Source: Entophlyctis helioformis (taxonomy: Eukaryota > Chytridiomycota > Chytridiomycetes > Chytridiales > Chytriomycetaceae). From it: a stretch of 64,000 nucleotides of DNA. Shown in pieces: positions 52,573 to 62,870 of this stretch. The stretch covers positions 1-64,000 of the forward strand of contig JAHLKH010000100.1 in assembly GCA_025526915.1 (NCBI GenBank), given 5' to 3'. A model generated the notes under the pieces. It saw only the letters and a list, made by a program, of their open reading frames with translations. It made no database searches and was not told where the DNA came from. Position 1 is the first letter of the stretch, and each line of letters opens with the position of its first letter. A program made the translations under genes and the position numbers.

Positions 52573-52831
52573 TGTAACGGATACTCGGTCGCGGTCACGT
52601 GATCCACGTGATCCACGTGACCGGACAGACATTGTCGGGCCGCACCGGCCGCTCTGGTTTCCCCCGTTCTTGCAGTCGTCTGCCCGCCGTTCCCCTGCGT
52701 GCATACTCACTGCCCCGAGACCAGGTCTGTGCTGCCTCCCAATGAAGTAGTCGTCTGCCCGCCGTTCCCCTGCGTGCATACTCACTGCCCCGAGACCAGC
52801 CGGCAAGTCCGTCTGGAGGCCCAGTGCTACA
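52573..52831 (+). repeat. LTR family A, complete copy 2
   Basis: TGTAACGGATACTCGG...CAGTGCTACA, 259 bp, with three CACGTG boxes. It acts as the 3' LTR of the preceding internal segment and the 5' LTR of the next. Confidence 0.88.
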
Positions 52832-53758
52832 GTGCTCCTCAACGCTGAGGGCATCTCCTGGCCAGCGGACTCGCACTGCCCGCCGCTCACGGCCGCCAAG
52901 TGGCTCGGCCCCTTTGCCATCACCAGCCTGGACTCTGGTGAATCTGGCCTCAACTACACGCTCGCGCTGCCTGCCTCGCTGCACCGCATCCACAACGTGT
53001 TCCATGCCGACCGGATCTGCCCGTATGTCGACCCCCTGTCTGCACCCACCGGCCGCAAGGATGTGCCCTCAAGGCCTGACCCCGAGTACCATGCCGACGA
53101 CGGCACGTCGGACAACTACGAGGTCGAGCGGATTGTCGACTCGCGCACTTATCGTGGCAAGATCGAGTATCTGGTCAAGTGGGTTGGCTATCCAGCCAAT
53201 GACAACACATGGGTCCCAGCCGCCGACATGCGCAAGGCCCAGGACCTCGTCAAGGCGTTCCATGCTCGGCCGACCAAGGCACCTAAGGGCAAGGCGTCCA
53301 AACCGGCTCAGCCCACGCACGCGGCTCCTGCACCGGCTGCCCCTGCCCCCGCCACGGCGCCTGCCCCCACGCAGCCCAAGGCATCCAAGTCCTCTCGCCG
53401 CAAGCGCACTGCGCCTGCTCCTGCACCAGTGGCTTCTGCTCCAGCTGCAGCCACGCCTGCGGCACCTGCTCCGGCTGACAAGCCGATCGCACCTGCTGCA
53501 CCCGCATCTCCCTCTCTCTCTCCATTGTTCCCTCCTCTCCCTCCTCCCTCTTCTCCTTCTTCCTTCTCTCTCTCTTCTCTTCCCCCTCTCAACCATCCTG
53601 CCCCACCTTGCCGCTCTGAGCGCACAGTTCCCCGTCCTGTGTCCTTCGGTCCATTGTTGCCCACACCTCTGCTTCTGTGTGTGCAACGCCCATGCATCCT
53701 CTTAGTCGCTGTTCATCCACTCTTCTTTCTTATGAGTGGCTGTCTACGCTGGGGGGAG
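52832..53758 (+). mobile_element. Internal remnant with integrase C-terminus and chromodomain
   Basis: An open frame encodes the end of a chromovirus pol: an integrase C-terminal segment (LTAAKWLGPFAITSLDSGES, LPASLHRIHNVFHADRICPY), then a chromodomain (YEVERIVDSRTYRGKIEYLV, KWVGYPANDNTW), then an Ala/Pro/Lys-rich tail. The chromodomain directs integration to marked chromatin in this Ty3/gypsy clade. The segment begins right at the LTR edge, so most of pol has been deleted. It ends with the polypurine tract CTGGGGGGAG. Confidence 0.88.
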
Positions 53759-54018
53759 TGTAACGGATGCTCGGTCGTGGTCACGTGATCCACGTGATCC
53801 ACGTGACCGGACAGACATTGTCGGGCCGCACCGGCCGCTCTGGTTTCCCCCGTTCTTGCAGTCGTCTGCCCGCCGTTCCCCTGCGTGCATACTCACTGCC
53901 CCGAGACCAGGTCTGTGCTACCTCCCAATGAAGTAGTCGTCTTCCCGCCGTTCCCCTGCATGCATACTCACTGCCCCTGCAACCAGCCGGCAAGCCCGCC
54001 TGGAGGACAAGTGTCACA
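53759..54018 (+). repeat. LTR family A, complete copy 3
   Basis: TGTAACGGATGCTCGG...AAGTGTCACA, about 260 bp, with three CACGTG boxes. It is the most diverged of the complete copies at its 3' end. I find no convincing target-site duplication with the outermost 5' copy; ATGTAT before 46796 and ATGGAT after 54019 match at five of six bases only. Confidence 0.85.
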
Positions 54019-54232: not shown

Positions 54233-57200
54233 TCACTCATCACTTTCCATATGATGATGGAAACTCATCAAGTTTGAAGGGATACTTGTAAAGTTTTGCC
54301 AGTCCATAGCACTGATTATACCATGTTAGAATGTGTTGGGGTAAATGTAGAGCAAGGGATATACTTACAATTCAGTCAGATTGACAAGTTTGCCCAACTC
54401 AGCTGGGATGCTGCCAGATAACTGGTTGTTGGACATGTTCCTACCAGACTCAAGTCAGTCCAACTGCAAACAGGCACACAAGTCAATGTTATGCTTACAG
54501 CTCAGTCAAATTGACCAGATTTCCCATCTCAGCTGGGATGTTGCCTTCCAGTTGGTTTTCACAAAGATCCCTGTTATCATCAGGTAAGTTCATCTGCAAA
54601 CAAACATATGAGAGAGTGAAATGCTTACAGTCCAGTCAGATTGATCAGATTGCCTAGTTCAGTTGGAATAATGCCTTTCAGTTTGTTGTGGTCAAGATCC
54701 CTGCAATCATTATGTAAGTTCATCTGCAAAGGGGCATATGTATAATACAGTACTCACAGCCTTGTCAGATTGACTAGGTTGCCCAGCTCAGTTGGGATGC
54801 TGCCTTCCAGATGGTTTTCACAAAGATTCCTGCAGTCATCAAGTCAGTCCATCTGCCAGTAAACACAAGTCAATGTAATGCTTACAGCTCAGTCAGATTG
54901 ACAAGATTGCCCAGCTCAGTTGGGATGCTTCCTGACAGCTGGTTGTTGAACAGATACCTGCAATCATTGAGTCAGTCCATCTGCAAACAGACATGAGACA
55001 ATGCAATGCTTACAGCTCAATCAGATCAGCCAGCTTGCCCAGCTCTGTTGGAATGTTGCCTGTCAGCTGATTATTGTCAAGATCCCTAAAGTCATCAAGT
55101 CAGTCCTTCTGTAAACAGGCACATGAGACATGCCAATTCTTACAGCTCAATCAGATTGGCCAGTGTGCCCAACACAGGTGGGATGTTTCCTGACAGCTGG
55201 TTTTCAGAAAGGTACCTACAACCATCAATTCAGTCCATCTGCATTCAGACACACAAGACATTACAATGCTTACAATTCAGTCAGATTGACCAGATTGCCC
55301 AGTTCAGCTGGGATGTTTCCTGATAGCTGGTTTTGGTGAAGATACCTGCCATAATCAAGTCAGTCCATCTGCATTCAGACACAAGGGACATTACAATACT
55401 TACAGCCTTGTCAGATTGACCAGATTGCCCAGCTCAGCTGGGATGTTTCCTGAAAGACAGTTCTGGTAAAGATACCTGCAATGATCAAGTCAGTCCATCT
55501 GCCAGGAGGCATATGAGACCATGTAATGCTTACAGCTCAATCAGATCAGCCAGTCTGCCCAGCTCAGTTGGGATGCTTCCTGACAGCTGGTTTTCAGAAA
55601 GATCCCTATAATCATCACATCAGTCCATCTGCAAACAGACACATATGACAGTGCAATGCTTACAGCTTTGTAAGATTGATCAGATTGCCCAGTTCAGTTG
55701 GGATGCCTCCTGACAGCTGGTTGTTGGAAAGGCCACTGCAGTCATCAAGTCAGTTCAGCTGCTAGCATACACTTGAGGTGAATCAATGCTTACAGCTCAG
55801 TCAGATTGACCAGATTGCCAAGTTCAGATGGGATGCTTCCTGACAGCTGGTTTTCAGAAAGATACCTGCAATAATCAAGTCAGTCCATCTGCAAACAGAC
55901 ACATGGGACATTACAATGCTTACAGCCATGTAAGATTGACTAGATTTCCCAACTCAGTTGGGATGTTTCCTGATAGCTGGTTCTGGTAAAGATACCTACA
56001 GCCATCACATCAGTCCATCTGCAAACATTCACACAAGCCAATGAAATACTTACAGCCTTGTCACTTTGATCAGATTGCCAAGCTCAGTTGGAATGTTGCC
56101 TGTCAGCTGGTTGTTGTCAAGATTCCTGCAACCATCTAGTCAGTCCATCTGCAAACAGACACATATGACAGTGCAATGCTTACAGCCCAGTCAGATTGAC
56201 TAGGTTGCCCAGTTCAGTTGGAATAATGCCTGTCAGCTGGTTGTTGTCAAGATATCTACAATCATCAAGTCAGTCTATTGCATCAAGGCACATTAGTTAG
56301 TAGCATACTTACAGCTCAGCCAGATTGACCAGTCTGCCCAGCTCAGCTGGGATGCTTCCTGACAGCTGGTTTTCAGAAAGATACCTGCAATCATCACATC
56401 AGTCCATCTGCAAACAGACGCACATCTCAATGCAATGCTTACAGATCAGTCAGATTGACCAGATTGCCAAGTGCACTTGGAATGTTGCCTGATAGCTGGT
56501 TTTGGTACAGAAACCTACAGCCATCAAGTCAGTCCATCTGCAAAAAACATATGAGACAATGCAATTCATACAGGTTTGTCAGATTGACAAGATTGCCCAG
56601 CTCAGCTGGGATGCTTCCTGAAAGCTGGTTGCCAAACAGATACCTGCAATTATCATATCAGTCCATCTGCAAGCAGAGACATGAGACACTACAATACATA
56701 CAGCTGTGTCAGATTGGCCAGGTTACCCAGTTCAGCAGGGATGCTTCCAGACAGCTGATTATTGTCAAGATCCCTACAACCATCAAGTCAGTTCATCTGT
56801 AAAGGGGCATACGAACAATACAATACTTACAGCCTTGTCAGATTGACCAGATTGCCCAGCTCAGTTGGAACACTCTGTGACAATTGGTTTTCAGAAAGAT
56901 ACCTGCAGTCACAAAGTCAGCTCTTCTGCAAGCAGGCACATGAGACATTACCATGCTTACAGCTGAGTCAAATTGGTCAGTTTGCCAAGCTCAGTTGGGA
57001 TGTTTCCTGACAGCTGGTTTGCTGAAAGATCACTGCAATCATCAAGTCAGCTCATCTGCAAACAGACACATATGACAGTGCAATGCTTACAGCTCAGTCA
57101 GATTGATCAGATCGCCCAGTTCAGTTGGGATGTTGCCTTCCAGGTTGTTGTTGGACAGATCTCTGCAACCATCAAGTCAGTTCATCTGCAAACAGACAAA

Positions 57201-60200
57201 TGAGACAATACAATGCTTACAACTTAGTCAAACTATTCAGCTTGTAAATGCAACCAGGCACCTCCTTCAGCTCATTTTCTGAAAGGTCCCTGTTTTCCAT
57301 CATGTCAAGCATCAGAACCACCCCCATGTTACAATAGTCACAACCAACTCACAGAATCTCCAAGTTGGCCAGATTGCCAACCGTTTCAGGAAGCACTCCA
57401 AGTTCACAATTTGTGATACTCCTACAAGTCACTGTCTGTCAGCTGCCACAATCATCTGCAGTAAATGAAAGTCAACATACAGCTCTGCCAGACTGATCAT
57501 CTTGCCAATGACAGAGATGTCATTGATTGCCTTGCCTCCAACCAGCCTGTCCAATAAAGGTCAGCCATGTTCAATCAAGGCAGAGCAGCACAATCCTTAC
57601 AGCTTTGTCAGATTGGTTAGATTGGCAATGGTGCTGGAAGCTCTGAGATCTGGTTGTTGCACCATTGCTTTGAGGGTGTGAGTGGTTGCCAGTTCAAGCC
57701 AGACAAGGCATGGTACTCACAGTGTTCTGAGTTGAGTGAGTTTGCCAATGGATGCTGGCAACTGTGTGATCTGGTTATCAGCAATGTCACTTTGGATTGC
57801 ACTCAATGTCAGTCACTCTCACCACAGCAGCCACGTGGCACTCAAACTCACAGCTCATCAAGATGCTCCAACTTGAAGATAAAGTATGGCACAGATCCTT
57901 GCAGGTTGTTTTGTCCAAGCCGCCTGTTGCTCAATGTCAGCCAGAGTGCCACATCCAGCAAGCCATATGAAGGCATGCTCACAGTGATGTCAACTTGGTC
58001 AGCTGGCAGATGCCTGGTGGGATTTCACCATCAAGCTCATTCTGGTCAAGCCACAACTCCTTGAGCATTGTCAGGCGACCAATGTCCTTGGGAATGATGC
58101 CAGACAGACTGCAACCAGTCAACCGCCTGTTTGCTCATAGCAATGTTTGGTGCATCAGTTACTTCTCAACCAGCATGCAGACAGCAATACTTACAGGGCA
58201 GTCAAGTTGTGCTGCTCATCCCACTCCATCTGCCACTTTGGAGTGATGCGTTTGGCAGAATCGTCATAGAGGTTCATCAACTCGCCTGTTGGATGCTCAG
58301 AGTTGACTGTAATATCGCTGTCCTTGGCCCACTCTGGGAAGATGGCACACAGGATTTCGAGATCAGATGCATCATCCTCCACCTTGACAGTACCACCTGT
58401 CATTTGAACACAAAGAAGTGAGCAGACAGCTGGTAGATGAACAGAGCACAAACAATGACACACCATCAACCAGCCTGGTTGCCATGGTCAAGTCCTTGAC
58501 AATTGTGGAAAAGTCAGGGCGATCATCAGGGTCATGTTCACAGCAGGTCTTGAGAGTGTCCTGCAGATCCTGCCACACATCGCCGTTGATGTTGTTTGAT
58601 GGCTGGAGTTGGTCGGCAGCCTGTGCCAAGACATCCTGAGCAAGGACGCCAAATGCATAGACATCAACAGGTGGTTTTGGCTTCTGCTGTCCACCCGTCT
58701 TGCCTTGTCCAGCGCCTCTTGTTTTGGCTTCAGGCGCCATGTACTTGGCATGGCTGGTGCTGTGGGTGGATGCTGCCAAGGCGCGAATAGACTGCATGCC
58801 GACACTGATCTTGACCTTGCTGCCCTTGGAGTCTGTCATCAAGTTGTCTGTGTGAGTGCCCGCCTGTTGGCATCAGCAGCAACAACAAGACAGTCGACTG
58901 ACCGAGATGGATGCGGCTCATGGACAGACTGCCATGGACGACTGGTCCATCAGGTGCAAACACGTGCAGGTACTTGAGGCCGCGCGCAATACGAGCCAGA
59001 ATCTGCAGGCGCTCTTGTACGCTCAGATCAGGGTGGACAGCCAAGTACGACTTGAGATCGTAGTCCATGTACGGCATGGCAATGAATGGCTTCTGGCCTT
59101 CCTTGCCCTTGAGACAGATGCCTGTAATGGGAAGCAGGTTGGCGTGACTGAGCTTGAACCACTGGCGTGCCTCATTCTCGATACTGGTGCACACAGCCTC
59201 GTCCAGGCTGTGCTTGAACTCCTTGACAATGATCTCGCTGCCATCCATCTTGGCCTTGTACACCGTGAATGTGCCCTTGGAGTCTTCAGGGACGGCGGAG
59301 ATGAGAAAGTCGTCGTGGCGAAGGTGGAGAGCACGTGGACGGACGTATCTGTGCAGTATCGCGTGTCAGTGGATGGACATGGTGCCGCGGTGGCAGCCCA
59401 TGGCAGCAACACGCACTGCAGGATCCTGTCTGTCTTGGTGTCGATCAGGTTGAGTTTCTTGGCCGTGTGCATGAGCATGACAGCAGAGTCCACTTGCATG
59501 GCGAGCGAGATCAGCTGGTGGGTGGAGAGTGTCAGTCAACCAAGTGCACAGATCCATGAGAGCAAAGCGATCGTCACGCACCTCCTTGATCTTGGCAAGA
59601 CGTTTCTTGTATCCAGCCATCTGGGCTTCAACCTCTGCCTTCTTGGCACCAATGACAATCTTGTACCAGCTACCGGTCGTGCTGGTGCCAGCCTGATGGA
59701 CTTCTGAACCTCCTTGAGCAGATCCACAAGCTCGGCGCACTTGCCGCGCACATCGGCAGAGAACCACTGGTTGGCCATCGGTGCAAGGATCGTCTTGAGT
59801 TCCTTGAGGTCGGCCAGGAAGCTCTTCAGACCGCCAATGCTGTCCACGCCGTCCTTGATGTTGCTGAGGATGTTGTCGATGATGCCAATGGCGACGGCAA
59901 TGCCTGGGATCGGCACAAAGTGTGATGCGGCCTTGGCAGCAGAGATGACGGTCGAGGCGACTTCCAGACCGTTGGTGGCGAGGAAGCGTGTCACAGCCTT
60001 GACGCTGCTGCCGCCGGTCTTCTTGGGAGCCTTGCGGATCATGTCGACAAACTCGACGACGGACGACGACAGCGTGGCGATGTTGGAGACGGTGGCCGTG
60101 TCAAAGTCGATCTCGTCCTCGCCAACTTCCTTGAGGAACGAGTTGCAGGCGGTCGTGAGCACATCATGGCCCTCGAGTGCCGATCCGAGGAACCCTTGAG

Positions 60201-60840
60201 CTTGTCGAACGCCGCATCTGCCGTGGCTGACTTGGCAGCCTGGGCCTGCGAGTCGTCTTCAACGACGGCGGCAGCAGAACGGGTTTCCTCGACAACCTGG
60301 CTCTGCAGCTCAAACAGCCTGCCGGCAATGCCGTTGATGGCGTCGACCAGATCGTCAGGCTTGGATGGATCGGCAGTCCTGATACGAGCCACCTCTTCTT
60401 CGAGCATCGCCACGAGCTCAGAGCGGAACGGTGTGTGTCAGTCAACAGCAGTGGCGGCGGCGGAAGCAAGGGCAGTGGCAGCAGCAGCAGCAGTGTGTGC
60501 ACGGCCACACCTTGTTGGAGTCGCCTGCAGCTACAACGGCACTGCTGATTGGCACACCTCTTGGAGCAGCGGATCGCTGCTCGTCATCCTCGACGGCCGA
60601 GACAGAGGGGAAGGCACTCTTGGTAGGAGCCGTTGGTGGGCCGATGTCAGGCTCGCTGCCGCAGGCGAGGCGGTCGTACCACTTGCTCAGCTTGCTCTTG
60701 CTGCTGCTGGCGGTCACACTTGGAGCGGCGATGGGACGAGGCGGCGTCGTGATGGCGGCCACACTTGGAGCAGTGCTGGGACGAGGCGACGCTGGTGGCG
60801 TCGGTCCGTCCGGCGGGCTGTTGTTGGGGCTGACGGTCAT
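54233..60840 (-). CDS. Predicted LRR-pseudokinase receptor-like protein with N-terminal helical (MLKL-like?) domain
   Basis: One gene of about 38 exons. Exon 1 (60840-60511) encodes a Pro/Ser-rich disordered start. Exon 2 on encodes a helical region (AAFDKLKG; SVVEFVDMIRKAPKKTGG; FVPIPGIAVAIGIIDNILSN; LKSFLADLKELKTILAPMAN) recalling the four-helix MLKL/HeLo-like death domains of animal and fungal proteins (weak resemblance). A TKL-like kinase fold follows: Lys in IIVKEFKHS, FIAMPYMDYDLKSYL, YMAPEA, DVYAFGVL, DRPDFSTI. HRDLK is replaced by HGSLS and DFG by a KISVGM segment, so it should be catalytically dead. After a linker come about 29 LRR exons (plant-type LSGSIPTELGNLVNLTEL) and a short C-terminus ending near 54233. 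No signal peptide or membrane helix is evident, so it is probably intracellular. Two 1-base frame breaks (about 60190 and 59698) interrupt the helical region; they may be assembly errors or mutations. Confidence 0.8.
54369..57240 (-). repeat. Tandem array of 22 LRR exon-intron units, 130-bp period
   Basis: Each unit has a 72-nt exon encoding one 24-residue LRR (LYLSENQLSGSIPTELGN-type) and a 58-nt intron of the form GTAAGCATTG...GATTGCAG, always phase 2. One unit measured exactly: exon 56384-56313. Exon starts recur about every 130 bp from 57.2 to 54.4 kb. Introns resemble each other as much as exons do, so the unit of duplication was exon plus intron. About seven more divergent LRR exons continue to 58.2 kb. 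Base composition is visibly AT-richer than the rest of the window. Confidence 0.88.
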
Positions 60841-60929
60841 GGTTGTCCTTGGTTCTATCTCTTGGTCTCTTGGTGAAGGCTTGCTCCAGTGCACCGTCAG
60901 CAACCTGCAGACGCCAGATGCCACACAGC

Positions 60930-62108
60930 TCGGCCGCTCACCAGGCGTTTGGTTGTTGTCTTCAAAGGCAACTCAGTCCGCCGTGTCCAAGCCAGTGGTC
61001 ATCGGCAACACATGCCGCATCACAAGTCGGATGGTCCCATGTTGCTGATGGGGCTGTGTGGCTGTCTGCCGCGAGCGTTGGTGGACAGCCACTGCCAGAT
61101 GCCCTTCTGGCTGGCAAGTGGGCAGGCAGATCGGCACTGCAAGTGTTTTGTCAGCCGCCTGCGTCAGATCTGCTCATGGCGAGGATGCTCATGCAGCCAG
61201 CTGGCAATGTGGTCGTCGCCCTTCTTCCTCGCCCACGAAGCTGCTCTGTCAGCATCGCCTTCACGAGGTTGAGATGCTGGAACTCGACGACCGGCGAGAT
61301 GGCCATGCTTGGCAGCATTCGCCATCGCCTGCCAAGCGCAGCCTTCCGTTCTGTGCCGATGCAGCCACACGATCACATCCAGATGCCCACAGGCAGCAGC
61401 ATGGTCCATGGCCGTGTGGTGCAGGCAGCGCTTCCTGCCTCGTGCAGCATCTGGACAATGGCAAGATGGCCGCTGCAAGCCGCCTTGTCCATTGCTGCAT
61501 AGCCATCAACAGTGTCGTACTGCTCAAGGTCGACGCCGTGCTCCTTGACAAGGTGGCACAGCAGGCCGGTGTAACCATGAGCAATAGCCATCCAGCCAAG
61601 AGCAATCGCATGCTGAAAGTCGGGCAGATCCCACCAGCCGTTGCACATGGGCACATGGAGGAGGCAGCCGTCCATGGGCAGCGGCCGAGAAGAGGTTGAT
61701 GCTCTCAAGGAACTCGTGCTGGTGGCTGTCCTGCTCTGGCAACCGTGCTCGCAGACGGTGGGACATGGAGCGTGTCTTGACGAGCAGCAAGCCGCCGTGG
61801 CTGTCAGAACCGAGCCATGCGTCTGGCAGCAGCAGCAGGTCGCCTTGCCAGTCGAGTGTGATGGCGTCTCGCCACAGCACACGGACGACGTCGTCGAGCA
61901 GGCGGCTGTCGCTGTCGAGCATGCCATTGACAAACAGAGCAAAGGTGTCTGCTGCCGTGAGAGTCGCCGACTGGGCATCTGCAGGCATGCTGGTCCAGAG
62001 ACTGCTGCCAGACAGGTGTGGCTCGCTGTCCGTGCTGCTGTCCTTGCTGCTGCTGGCAGACATCGCGGTTGATGTGCTGTTGGGCAAGATGGACGCGGTG
62101 GCTGGCAC
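60930..62108 (-). pseudogene. Ankyrin-repeat protein pseudogene
   Basis: Starts at ATG 62108 with a Ser/Thr-rich N-terminus, then DWQGDLLLLP, KTRSMSHRLRARLPEQ and a block with GYTGLLCHLVKE followed by HGVDL, paralogous to the intact 2040-2747 gene. Ankyrin repeats follow (SGHLAIVQMLHEAG; AMDHAAACGHLDVIVWLHRH; NAAKHGHLA then VVEF in another frame). The reading frame changes near 61685, 61410 and 61275, and stops appear further on (61.0-61.1 kb), so the gene is broken unless many small introns are assumed. It ends about 100 bp before the start of the LRR gene on the same strand. Confidence 0.75.
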
Positions 62109-62111
62109 GCG

Positions 62112-62870
62112 ACGTTGAGCCAGATCCAGGCGTTGGTGGTGCGGCTCGCCTCATGCTGGCCACCAGGGCCGCGAACGAACACACGGCCGTCTGCGGATGC
62201 ACTACTACTGGCCGGACATGGCTGCGTCGGTCGGCCGCTTTGTGGGCTCGTGCGACGCCTGCCAGCGGTTCAACTCGTCGACGCAGGCGCCTGCCGGTCT
62301 GCTGCACCCGCTGCCCATCCCTGCCGACCGCTTCCAGTCTGTGGCCTGCGACGTTGCGTTCATGCCCATGTCGGACGAGGGCAACGACGCTCTGTTTGTG
62401 GTTGTGGATCGCCTGACAAAGCTTGTCAAGTGCGTGCCAACGCGACGCGATGCGACTGCCGAGGATCTTGCCGCTCTGTTCCTCAACCGATGGGTGCTTG
62501 CTGGCCACGGCCTGCCGTCGTCTATCGTGTCGGACCGCGACGCTCGCTTCCTGTCTGCCTTCTGGACGGCGCTCTGTGCGGCGCTGGACATTGAGCAGGT
62601 CATGGCAACGGCCCGCCACCAGGAGACCGACGGCCAGTCCGAACGCACCATCCGCACGCTCAAGGACCTGCTGTCCAAGTATGCCAACCACCGCGGCAGC
62701 AACTGGGAGCACATGCTCGATGCGGCTGTCCATGCCCTCAACTCTGCTCCAAGTGCATCGACTGGCTATGCTCCGTACTTTCTCGCCTTTGGCCTTGAGC
62801 CTCGCACGCTGCCACATGAGCCTGCAGCATTGTCGCCACCTGCTTTTCGAAGCACCATCTGTCAGGTACT
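62112..62870 (+). mobile_element. Orphan Ty3/gypsy integrase fragment
   Basis: An uninterrupted frame covers the integrase zinc-binding HHCC region (HAGHQGRERTHGRLRMHYYW ... CDACQRFNSSTQAP) and the catalytic core with all three acidic residues: Asp in SVACDVAFMP, Asp in SIVSDRDARF and Glu in TDGQSERTIRTLK. It stops after YFLAFGLEPRTLP. No LTR flanks it, and it begins within a few bases of the start codon of the ankyrin pseudogene on the other strand. It is the pol part absent from the 47-54 kb elements; whether it came from the same copy is unknown. Confidence 0.88.

Follow-up and report, generated by a model that had tools for sequence, protein, structure and literature searches.

The 64,000-nucleotide stretch of Entophlyctis helioformis DNA analyzed in this work (contig JAHLKH010000100.1, positions 1 to 64,000; hereafter the window) carries, on its minus strand, a multi-exon gene encoding a candidate intracellular receptor. 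The ATG of this gene lies at position 60840 and its stop codon ends at position 54233, which are exactly the limits proposed for a single gene in a preliminary description of this DNA (54233..60840). The spliced sequence encodes, in this order, a helical N-terminus, a TKL-type pseudokinase, a linker and approximately 30 leucine-rich repeats (LRRs). Pfam analysis of the spliced protein identified PK_Tyr_Ser-Thr (E = 2.4e-20) and several LRR families, and in the public models of the paralogues the N-terminus, the kinase and the LRRs are all found within one protein, in agreement with the three-part order that had been read from the letters. The window copy itself has no public protein model among the matches of our protein search, in which ten public E. 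helioformis proteins were matched.

Organization of the receptor gene

The start codon and an N-terminal extension that is Ser/Pro-rich by eye are encoded in exon 1 (60511..60840), whose protein is 95% identical in paralogue L036. Exon 2 (59582..60416), which holds two frame breaks as assembled, encodes a helical domain with an MLKL_N-like core, predicted by AlphaFold2 (AF2) to be all-helical with low confidence. The end of this domain is encoded in exon 3 (59417..59514), with 90-100% identity in most paralogues; the two most distant ones have 51% and 78%. The pseudokinase is encoded in exon 4 (58903..59348; N-lobe and catalytic loop) and exon 5 (58464..58832; C-lobe), the acceptor of the latter matching public model P0001, and exon 6 (58195..58396) encodes the linker that joins the kinase to the LRR domain. 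The LRR domain begins with a block of 8 LRRs in 7 exons (57221..58126) that is alike among paralogues; six of these exons measure 144, 72, 69, 66, 69 and 69 nt, and the seventh (~57601-57680) is frame-broken. It continues with a variable LRR array (54369..57162) of 22 consecutive exons separated by introns of 56-58 nt, with a period of ~130 bp, and a last exon (54233..54311) encodes a short tail and the stop codon. The two 2-kb blocks holding the array have a GC content of 44% and 46%, compared to 54-69% in the remaining window. When LRR exons were predicted in nine paralogous loci, 140 out of 157 were present verbatim in the corresponding public protein, and the 17 unmatched exons include all eight of L042, where the public model stops early.

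A conserved pseudokinase

Judged by its motifs, the kinase of this family is dead, as had been proposed for the window copy. In the window protein, HRD is replaced by HGS (VHGSLSMSRI) and DFG by VGM (KISVGMQS), while the beta-3 Lys (EIIVKEF) and the APE and RP motifs are retained. The Asp of HRD is lost in all 16 kinase-bearing loci of the genome (HGS; HCS in one), each of which retains the beta-3 Lys, and DFG is present in none of the 15 loci whose kinase is readable at this position. The related proteins P0010, P0012, P0013 and P0016 of Polyrhizophydium stewartii carry HGA, HGS, HGS and HGN, respectively, in place of HRD. By sequence, the PDB relatives of the kinase are headed by MLK1, followed by SYMRK, with MLKL within the first ten; the VIA-align match lists, which cover the kinase part alone, contain only kinases, and MLKL is absent among the 50 rows listed. 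HGDLKANN and DFG are present in L001/L055, a related kinase of the same genome. A weak match to MLKL_N on C111 (E = 0.033) was rejected as belonging to another kinase gene, L056 (20190-23400), which has HGN and DMG motifs.

LRR arrays are built from exon-sized cassettes

Each of the 22 array exons of the window is exactly 72 nt long, lies in phase 2 and encodes one 24-residue LRR (LxLxxNxLxGxIPxELGxLxNLTx). Tandem Repeats Finder placed the array at 54364-57230, with a period of 130 and 22.1 copies. The 24-residue design is also found in eight paralogues, and a second cassette type of 23 residues (LPESIGNL), with 69-nt exons and introns of mostly 60-74 nt, is found in L046, L047 and L053 and, less regularly, in L042. 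In L043, a four-unit block occurs three times in full and is followed by two more units, and in L039 the head of the gene is present with only two LRR exons found downstream. Since every array exon starts and ends in phase 2, a property read directly from the DNA, the frame is kept when a unit is added, removed or swapped for another, or when it is skipped in splicing, and the family may make use of this freedom.

A 271-bp piece of the window array is found in at least 94 places on ten contigs. In a tree of the units, these cluster by gene (40 label changes, compared to a mean of 66.6 and a minimum of 61 in 500 shuffles), suggesting that arrays have been partly homogenised within genes. Mean unit identity is 0.49-0.65 in eight Entophlyctis proteins, with pairs at 0.9 or above in P0002, P0004 and P0007, and 0.36-0.40 in four Polyrhizophydium proteins, with no such pair (P0016 was left out of this comparison, having too few units).

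Cassettes of this kind are also present in a different gene. On contig C36, one of these ten (L003/L057, ~118302-122500, minus strand), an active-looking TKL kinase (GEGSYG, AIK, HGDLKANN and DFG) precedes a mixed array with a spacing of 127-132 bp, in which, as counted by pattern, 15 units of the 23-residue type come first and 4 of the 24-residue type last. On contig C223 (L002), a kinase closely similar to that of C36 is found with repeated units at ~132-bp steps. The sharing of cassettes between the pseudokinase family and these genes suggests that two receptor families draw on one cassette pool, and both active-looking TKL kinase genes, with long LRR arrays at steps of ~131 bp, encode possible partner kinases.

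The concave face of the LRRs is under diversifying selection

The codons of the LRR concave face (2, 4, 5, 23 and 24) were chosen before counting, and they are under diversifying selection. In nine arrays (144 units), the pairwise ratio of nonsynonymous to synonymous substitution rates (dN/dS) was 0.91 at the concave-face codons compared to 0.37 elsewhere; it was higher at the surface than in the rest in all nine arrays and above 1 in four of them (L037, L038, L043 and L048). Structural positions are nearly invariant in the protein while their synonymous sites vary, as illustrated by Asn6 (proportion of nonsynonymous differences, pN, 0.00; of synonymous differences, pS, 0.58). In a tree built from exon plus intron, the most changed of 23 codons were 4, 24, 2 and 5, all of them named beforehand (chance 5 in 8855), with codon 14 close behind and the fifth pre-named codon, 23, outside the top four.

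In addition, the intron was used as a reference for the 96 of 144 units that have a 58-nt intron, by counting parsimony changes on the unit tree. This gave 19.5 changes per site at surface codons, compared to 11.6 in the free intron, 11.7 at third positions of the other codons and 6.1 at their first and second positions (p = 1.2e-3). Six of the nine arrays had enough units for a separate test, and in five of these the surface codons exceeded the intron (uncorrected p values: L037, 0.0045; L043, 0.0002; L048, 3.6e-6; L050, 0.001; window, 0.036).

A multigene family shared with Polyrhizophydium stewartii

The N-terminal core was identified at 20 loci on 20 contigs of the E. helioformis genome, with 79-96% identity to the window piece in 17 of the 19 other loci and 48% and 37% in the remaining two. 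The kinase exon is present in 16 of the 20 loci (46-89% identity). L036 and L050 share 96% identity over 6.5 kb, and L038 and L039 share 97% over 3 kb, so that some family loci may be alleles or very recent duplicates. Exon 2 is open over its whole length in six of the 20 loci (L036, L039, L041, L042, L043 and L047), in which exons 4 and 5 are open as well; it is open across the matched part only in L037, L040 and L044, and in three further loci it is either cut short by the end of the contig or has diverged too far to be judged. L045 and L048 lack both exons of the kinase (4 and 5), and their intron 3 leads straight into exon 6. These two loci were considered as natural effector-sensor fusions lacking the pseudokinase and rejected: we did not count them as functional because, as assembled, L048 loses the frame at the join and L045 soon after it. 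A further copy of the N-terminal domain, L044 (C286), has no kinase exons that we could find downstream.

The three-part architecture that had been described from a single gene is shared, dead kinase motifs included, by P. stewartii, where it is found in eight records (P0010-P0017; 39-47% identity), some of which are two versions of one gene. This was the only other species with the same architecture in our search, the sole additional match being one plant kinase (E = 4.8e-6). The search scored the 8000 candidates sharing most words and reaches relatives that have exact five-residue words in common; more distant relatives of the family may lie beyond that reach. When the N-terminal region was used as sole query, all 16 matches came from E. 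helioformis and P. stewartii.

The N-terminal domain and its likeness to MLKL

The Pfam family MLKL_N was matched in six of the nine members scanned (E = 4.8e-5 to 0.0073), namely P0007 and P0018 of Entophlyctis and four Polyrhizophydium proteins, over profile positions 37-126 in five members and 9-124 in the sixth. In a control with reversed sequences, MLKL_N was matched in 0 of 7 and no family scored better than 0.0016. A first AF2 model (P0006), with a mean predicted local distance difference test score (pLDDT) of 55.6, was set aside. When a second model (P0013, from 18 sequences) was used as a Foldseek query, full-length mouse MLKL (4btf) ranked first among 1968 matches, by a small margin (2.8e-11 compared to 5.7e-11 for rank 2). 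The alignment with 4btf spans 453 columns, compared to 277-316 for the other 49 matches listed, a length implying that the alignment includes the bundle region, the listing being without residue ranges; the whole-chain superposition is poor (TMq 0.26, root-mean-square deviation 23). Also conserved in the N-terminus is a hydrophobic segment, FVPIPGIAVAIGIIDNILS (mean hydropathy 1.78), which could form a membrane-seeking helix. Taken together, a relationship of the N-terminus to MLKL is likely but not established.

No Pfam family reached its curated cut-off in the N-terminus, and NCBIfam gave weak scattered matches only. Against the PDB, the best match of the whole N-terminus had an E value of only 0.57; the core matched apolipoprotein A-IV (E = 0.0021) in four weak scattered stretches, which we judged compositional and rejected. 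The next matches of the core in the profile search were Msh3, clusterin and the CC-R domain of NRG1 (NRG1/RPW8-type CC), which are not significant (E = 0.46-1.5), and a single-sequence PDB search of the core gave RTT103 at 0.035. Searching the genome in six frames with MLKL_N gave two matches, neither above the cut-off. The N-termini of the C36 and C223 kinases had no MLKL_N match, and the value for C153 was 0.04.

Comparison with known systems

Brown-algal LRR-ROCO genes (Ectocarpus and Saccharina) are described as candidate immune receptors with tandem arrays of 72-bp, phase-2, one-LRR exons, and their LRRs are reported to undergo alternative splicing and to be under positive selection on the concave side (PMC11378527). 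The chytrid array has the same layout of 72-nt phase-2 exons with one LRR each, both in the window (22 exons) and in the eight paralogues, and diversifying selection on the concave face is common to both systems, detected here by a method other than the PAML analysis used for the algal genes. The chytrid proteins differ in their output, which consists of a helical domain and a pseudokinase, and in their host, a fungus; no ROC-COR GTPase was present among the Pfam matches of the spliced window protein.

Vertebrate MLKL and fungal HeLo/HELL (pseudo)kinase proteins share with the chytrid protein N-terminal helices followed by a TKL-type pseudokinase with the beta-3 Lys. Unlike these proteins, it has a C-terminal array of 30 LRRs and a long N-terminal extension, and its MLKL_N similarity falls below the curated cut-off. 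MLKL ends after its pseudokinase, whereas in the chytrid protein approximately 30 LRRs follow at this point. A 2025 review mentions the joining of fungal HELL domains to a kinase or a pseudokinase (PMC12881547).

Fungal NOD-like receptors (NLRs) are reported to carry highly conserved WD, ankyrin (ANK) and tetratricopeptide (TPR) repeats that show concerted evolution and positive selection, and the survey in question reports neither LRRs in these receptors nor any hit in chytrids (PMC4986451); that fungal NLRs lack LRRs is restated in the 2025 review (PMC12881547). The chytrid family resembles them as an intracellular multigene family whose repeat sensor shows concerted evolution and positive selection, and differs in its LRR repeats, in a cassette that corresponds to one exon plus intron, and in having no NACHT or NB-ARC domain. 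Neither domain was found by Pfam in the window protein, and the single NACHT match genome-wide is located elsewhere. With plant LRR receptor-like kinases (LRR-RLKs), in which an N-terminal LRR ectodomain is followed by a transmembrane segment and then the kinase, the protein shares a plant-type LRR motif (GxIPxxLGxL) and a kinase fold, but the LRRs lie C-terminal to the kinase, reversing the order, and the kinase is a pseudokinase.

Since one tested defining feature of each group is absent, we did not file the protein as MLKL, ROCO, NLR or LRR-RLK. By analogy, it would work most nearly as an MLKL-type effector that carries a cassette LRR sensor in the brown-algal style. LRR receptors are described as almost absent from fungi, and four LRR-plus-kinase genes without transmembrane regions are reported from Batrachochytrium dendrobatidis (Soanes and Talbot, PMC2939053). 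Among the papers listed by our searches of the open-licence PMC literature, we found no record of a helical domain, a pseudokinase and a cassette LRR array in combination. The statement in the preliminary description that the architecture is unfamiliar in fungi agrees with these searches as regards the three-part combination; helix plus (pseudo)kinase is already described in fungi (PMC12881547), and one-LRR-per-exon cassettes are already known in brown algae.

A candidate family of cytoplasmic recognition receptors

We propose, with a probability of roughly 0.55, that these genes form a multigene family of cytoplasmic receptors for non-self or danger, with an LRR sensor and an MLKL-like output. 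The sensor half of this proposal is well supported. The LRRs had been viewed as a sensor from the outset, and the stronger evidence for a receptor comes from two features that were not part of the preliminary description, namely the hypervariability of the cassette array and the existence of a multigene family. The LRR array would bind a variable ligand, the trigger being perhaps a microbe or virus, or else a non-self conspecific. Cassettes would multiply, move and homogenise through recombination, and recombination together with diversifying selection on the concave face would change specificity while leaving frame and fold undisturbed. The pseudokinase would act as a non-catalytic relay passing on the change caused by ligand binding to the helical bundle, the putative output module, which would then be released and associate with membranes, most likely as in MLKL, a protein that permeabilises membranes after phosphorylation. 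The killing step that would follow is inferred by us from this likeness.

Several observations weigh against this proposal. The MLKL_N matches are below the Pfam cut-off of 27 bits throughout (best 23.3), three of the nine members are unmatched, four of the six matches come from the related Polyrhizophydium proteins, and the window's own N-terminal pieces gave no MLKL_N match in the Pfam scan. MLKL was not among the matches of PDB sequence searches with the N-terminus. The P0013 model has a mean pLDDT of 66, with 27-67 by ten-residue block in the N-terminal 300 residues. In addition, the four-helix bundle of MLKL sits at the very N-terminus, unlike the MLKL-like core of the chytrid proteins, which starts only after ~120 to 250 residues. 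The MLKL_N and Foldseek matches offer a lead in favour of the comparison with MLKL made in the preliminary description; the curated thresholds and the PDB sequence searches do not. The sub-threshold similarity, the lack of MLKL in the PDB sequence searches and the long extension, together with the active-looking kinase genes bearing such cassette arrays on C36 and C223, also suit a receptor or scaffold that has a variable LRR sensor and whose helical domain would be an oligomerisation or adaptor module; this module would have no action on membranes and would signal, perhaps to the active TKL kinases that bear these cassettes. We regard this as possible and rather doubtful, as both the conserved hydrophobic segment and the first rank of full-length MLKL in Foldseek count against it.

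The remaining points against a non-self receptor concern the selection signal and the integrity of the copies. The window array has a mild signal, with a dN/dS of 0.43 at the surface and 0.30 in the rest, and its p value in the intron-referenced test rises to 0.08 with codon positions 1 and 2 only; in L040 the surface codons are not above the intron (p = 0.43). The selection test assumes a single tree, which recombination between units contravenes, and the test is also weakened by any constraint on the intron. As assembled, the window copy has three frame breaks, two in exon 2 (which occupies three frames) and one in the LRR exon at ~57601-57680. Exon 2 is broken in eight loci (L038, L045, L046, L048, L049, L050, L052 and the window), exon 4 is broken in L040 and L050, and there are stops in exon 5 of L038. 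These breaks and the out-of-frame, kinase-less copies would be expected of a decaying, repeat-driven family with many pseudogenes and no sensor function, whose cassette arrays would grow through unequal crossing over and would drift. Such decay is improbable given the near invariance of the LRR structural positions amid varied synonymous sites and the dN/dS of 0.37 outside the surface, the six loci with exons 2, 4 and 5 all open, and the pseudokinase motifs, uniform in 16 of 16 loci. The breaks in the window copy are all frame shifts; the copy is otherwise without premature stop and its introns are GT-AG throughout, a pattern in keeping with either an error of assembly or decay that is very recent. 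A role outside immunity, as a developmental or gamete/zoospore recognition receptor whose variable LRRs would tell self from non-self partners, seems more improbable still: diversifying, cassette-built LRR arrays fit any non-self recognition, and we found no positive evidence for this particular one.

Returning to the non-self receptor with an MLKL-like output, a wider proposal can be made tentatively. The family may represent innate recognition of the chytrids' own (Rhizophydiales-type), operating without NLRs, in which a fast-diversifying LRR sensor made of cassettes is fused directly to an MLKL-type pseudokinase executioner and the active TKL kinases sharing the cassette pool act upstream or as partners, as a sensor-fused counterpart of RIPK3-MLKL. 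If the receptor reading is correct, the family would fill, by a different design, the gap left by the reported scarcity of fungal LRR receptors (PMC2939053) and by fungal NLRs that are described as lacking LRRs and chytrid representatives (PMC4986451), and the MLKL-like module would sit at the sensor itself. The sensor half is of high interest. Its 72-bp phase-2 one-LRR cassette matches the one reported for the ROCO genes of brown algae, a lineage unrelated to the chytrids, which suggests that cassettes flanked by introns have come into use convergently for receptor diversification. Moreover, since the intron beside each LRR exon provides a built-in neutral yardstick, selection on the recognition surface should be measurable directly between strains.

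Genomic context of the family

A telomeric location of the family was considered and is not claimed. One family copy (C29) lies ~12 kb from a TTAGGG telomere array, among the 100 of 168 TTAGGG places listed; we do not claim telomeric siting because other contigs among these places (C54, C110 and C246) have no family copy and eleven locus ends, mostly contig ends, contain 0 to 2 TTAGGG per 600 bases. In 18 of the 20 loci the LRR side points to a contig end that lies within 20 kb, several of the contigs being short anyway, and these ends may be assembly breaks in repeats.

Just upstream of the receptor gene, the minus strand of the window at 60900-62400 contains frame-broken reading frames that are ankyrin-like by eye. 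The DNA of this region is common to 7 to 14 other family loci, suggesting that the duplication unit exceeds the receptor gene. In L043, L046 and L047, a frame that is WD40-like by eye (ELPGHAD-VFSV) replaces the upstream sequence common to other copies. Adjoining the 3' side of the gene, a plus-strand reading frame at 52751-53788 has, by eye, a chromodomain-like end as in Ty3/Gypsy-type elements.

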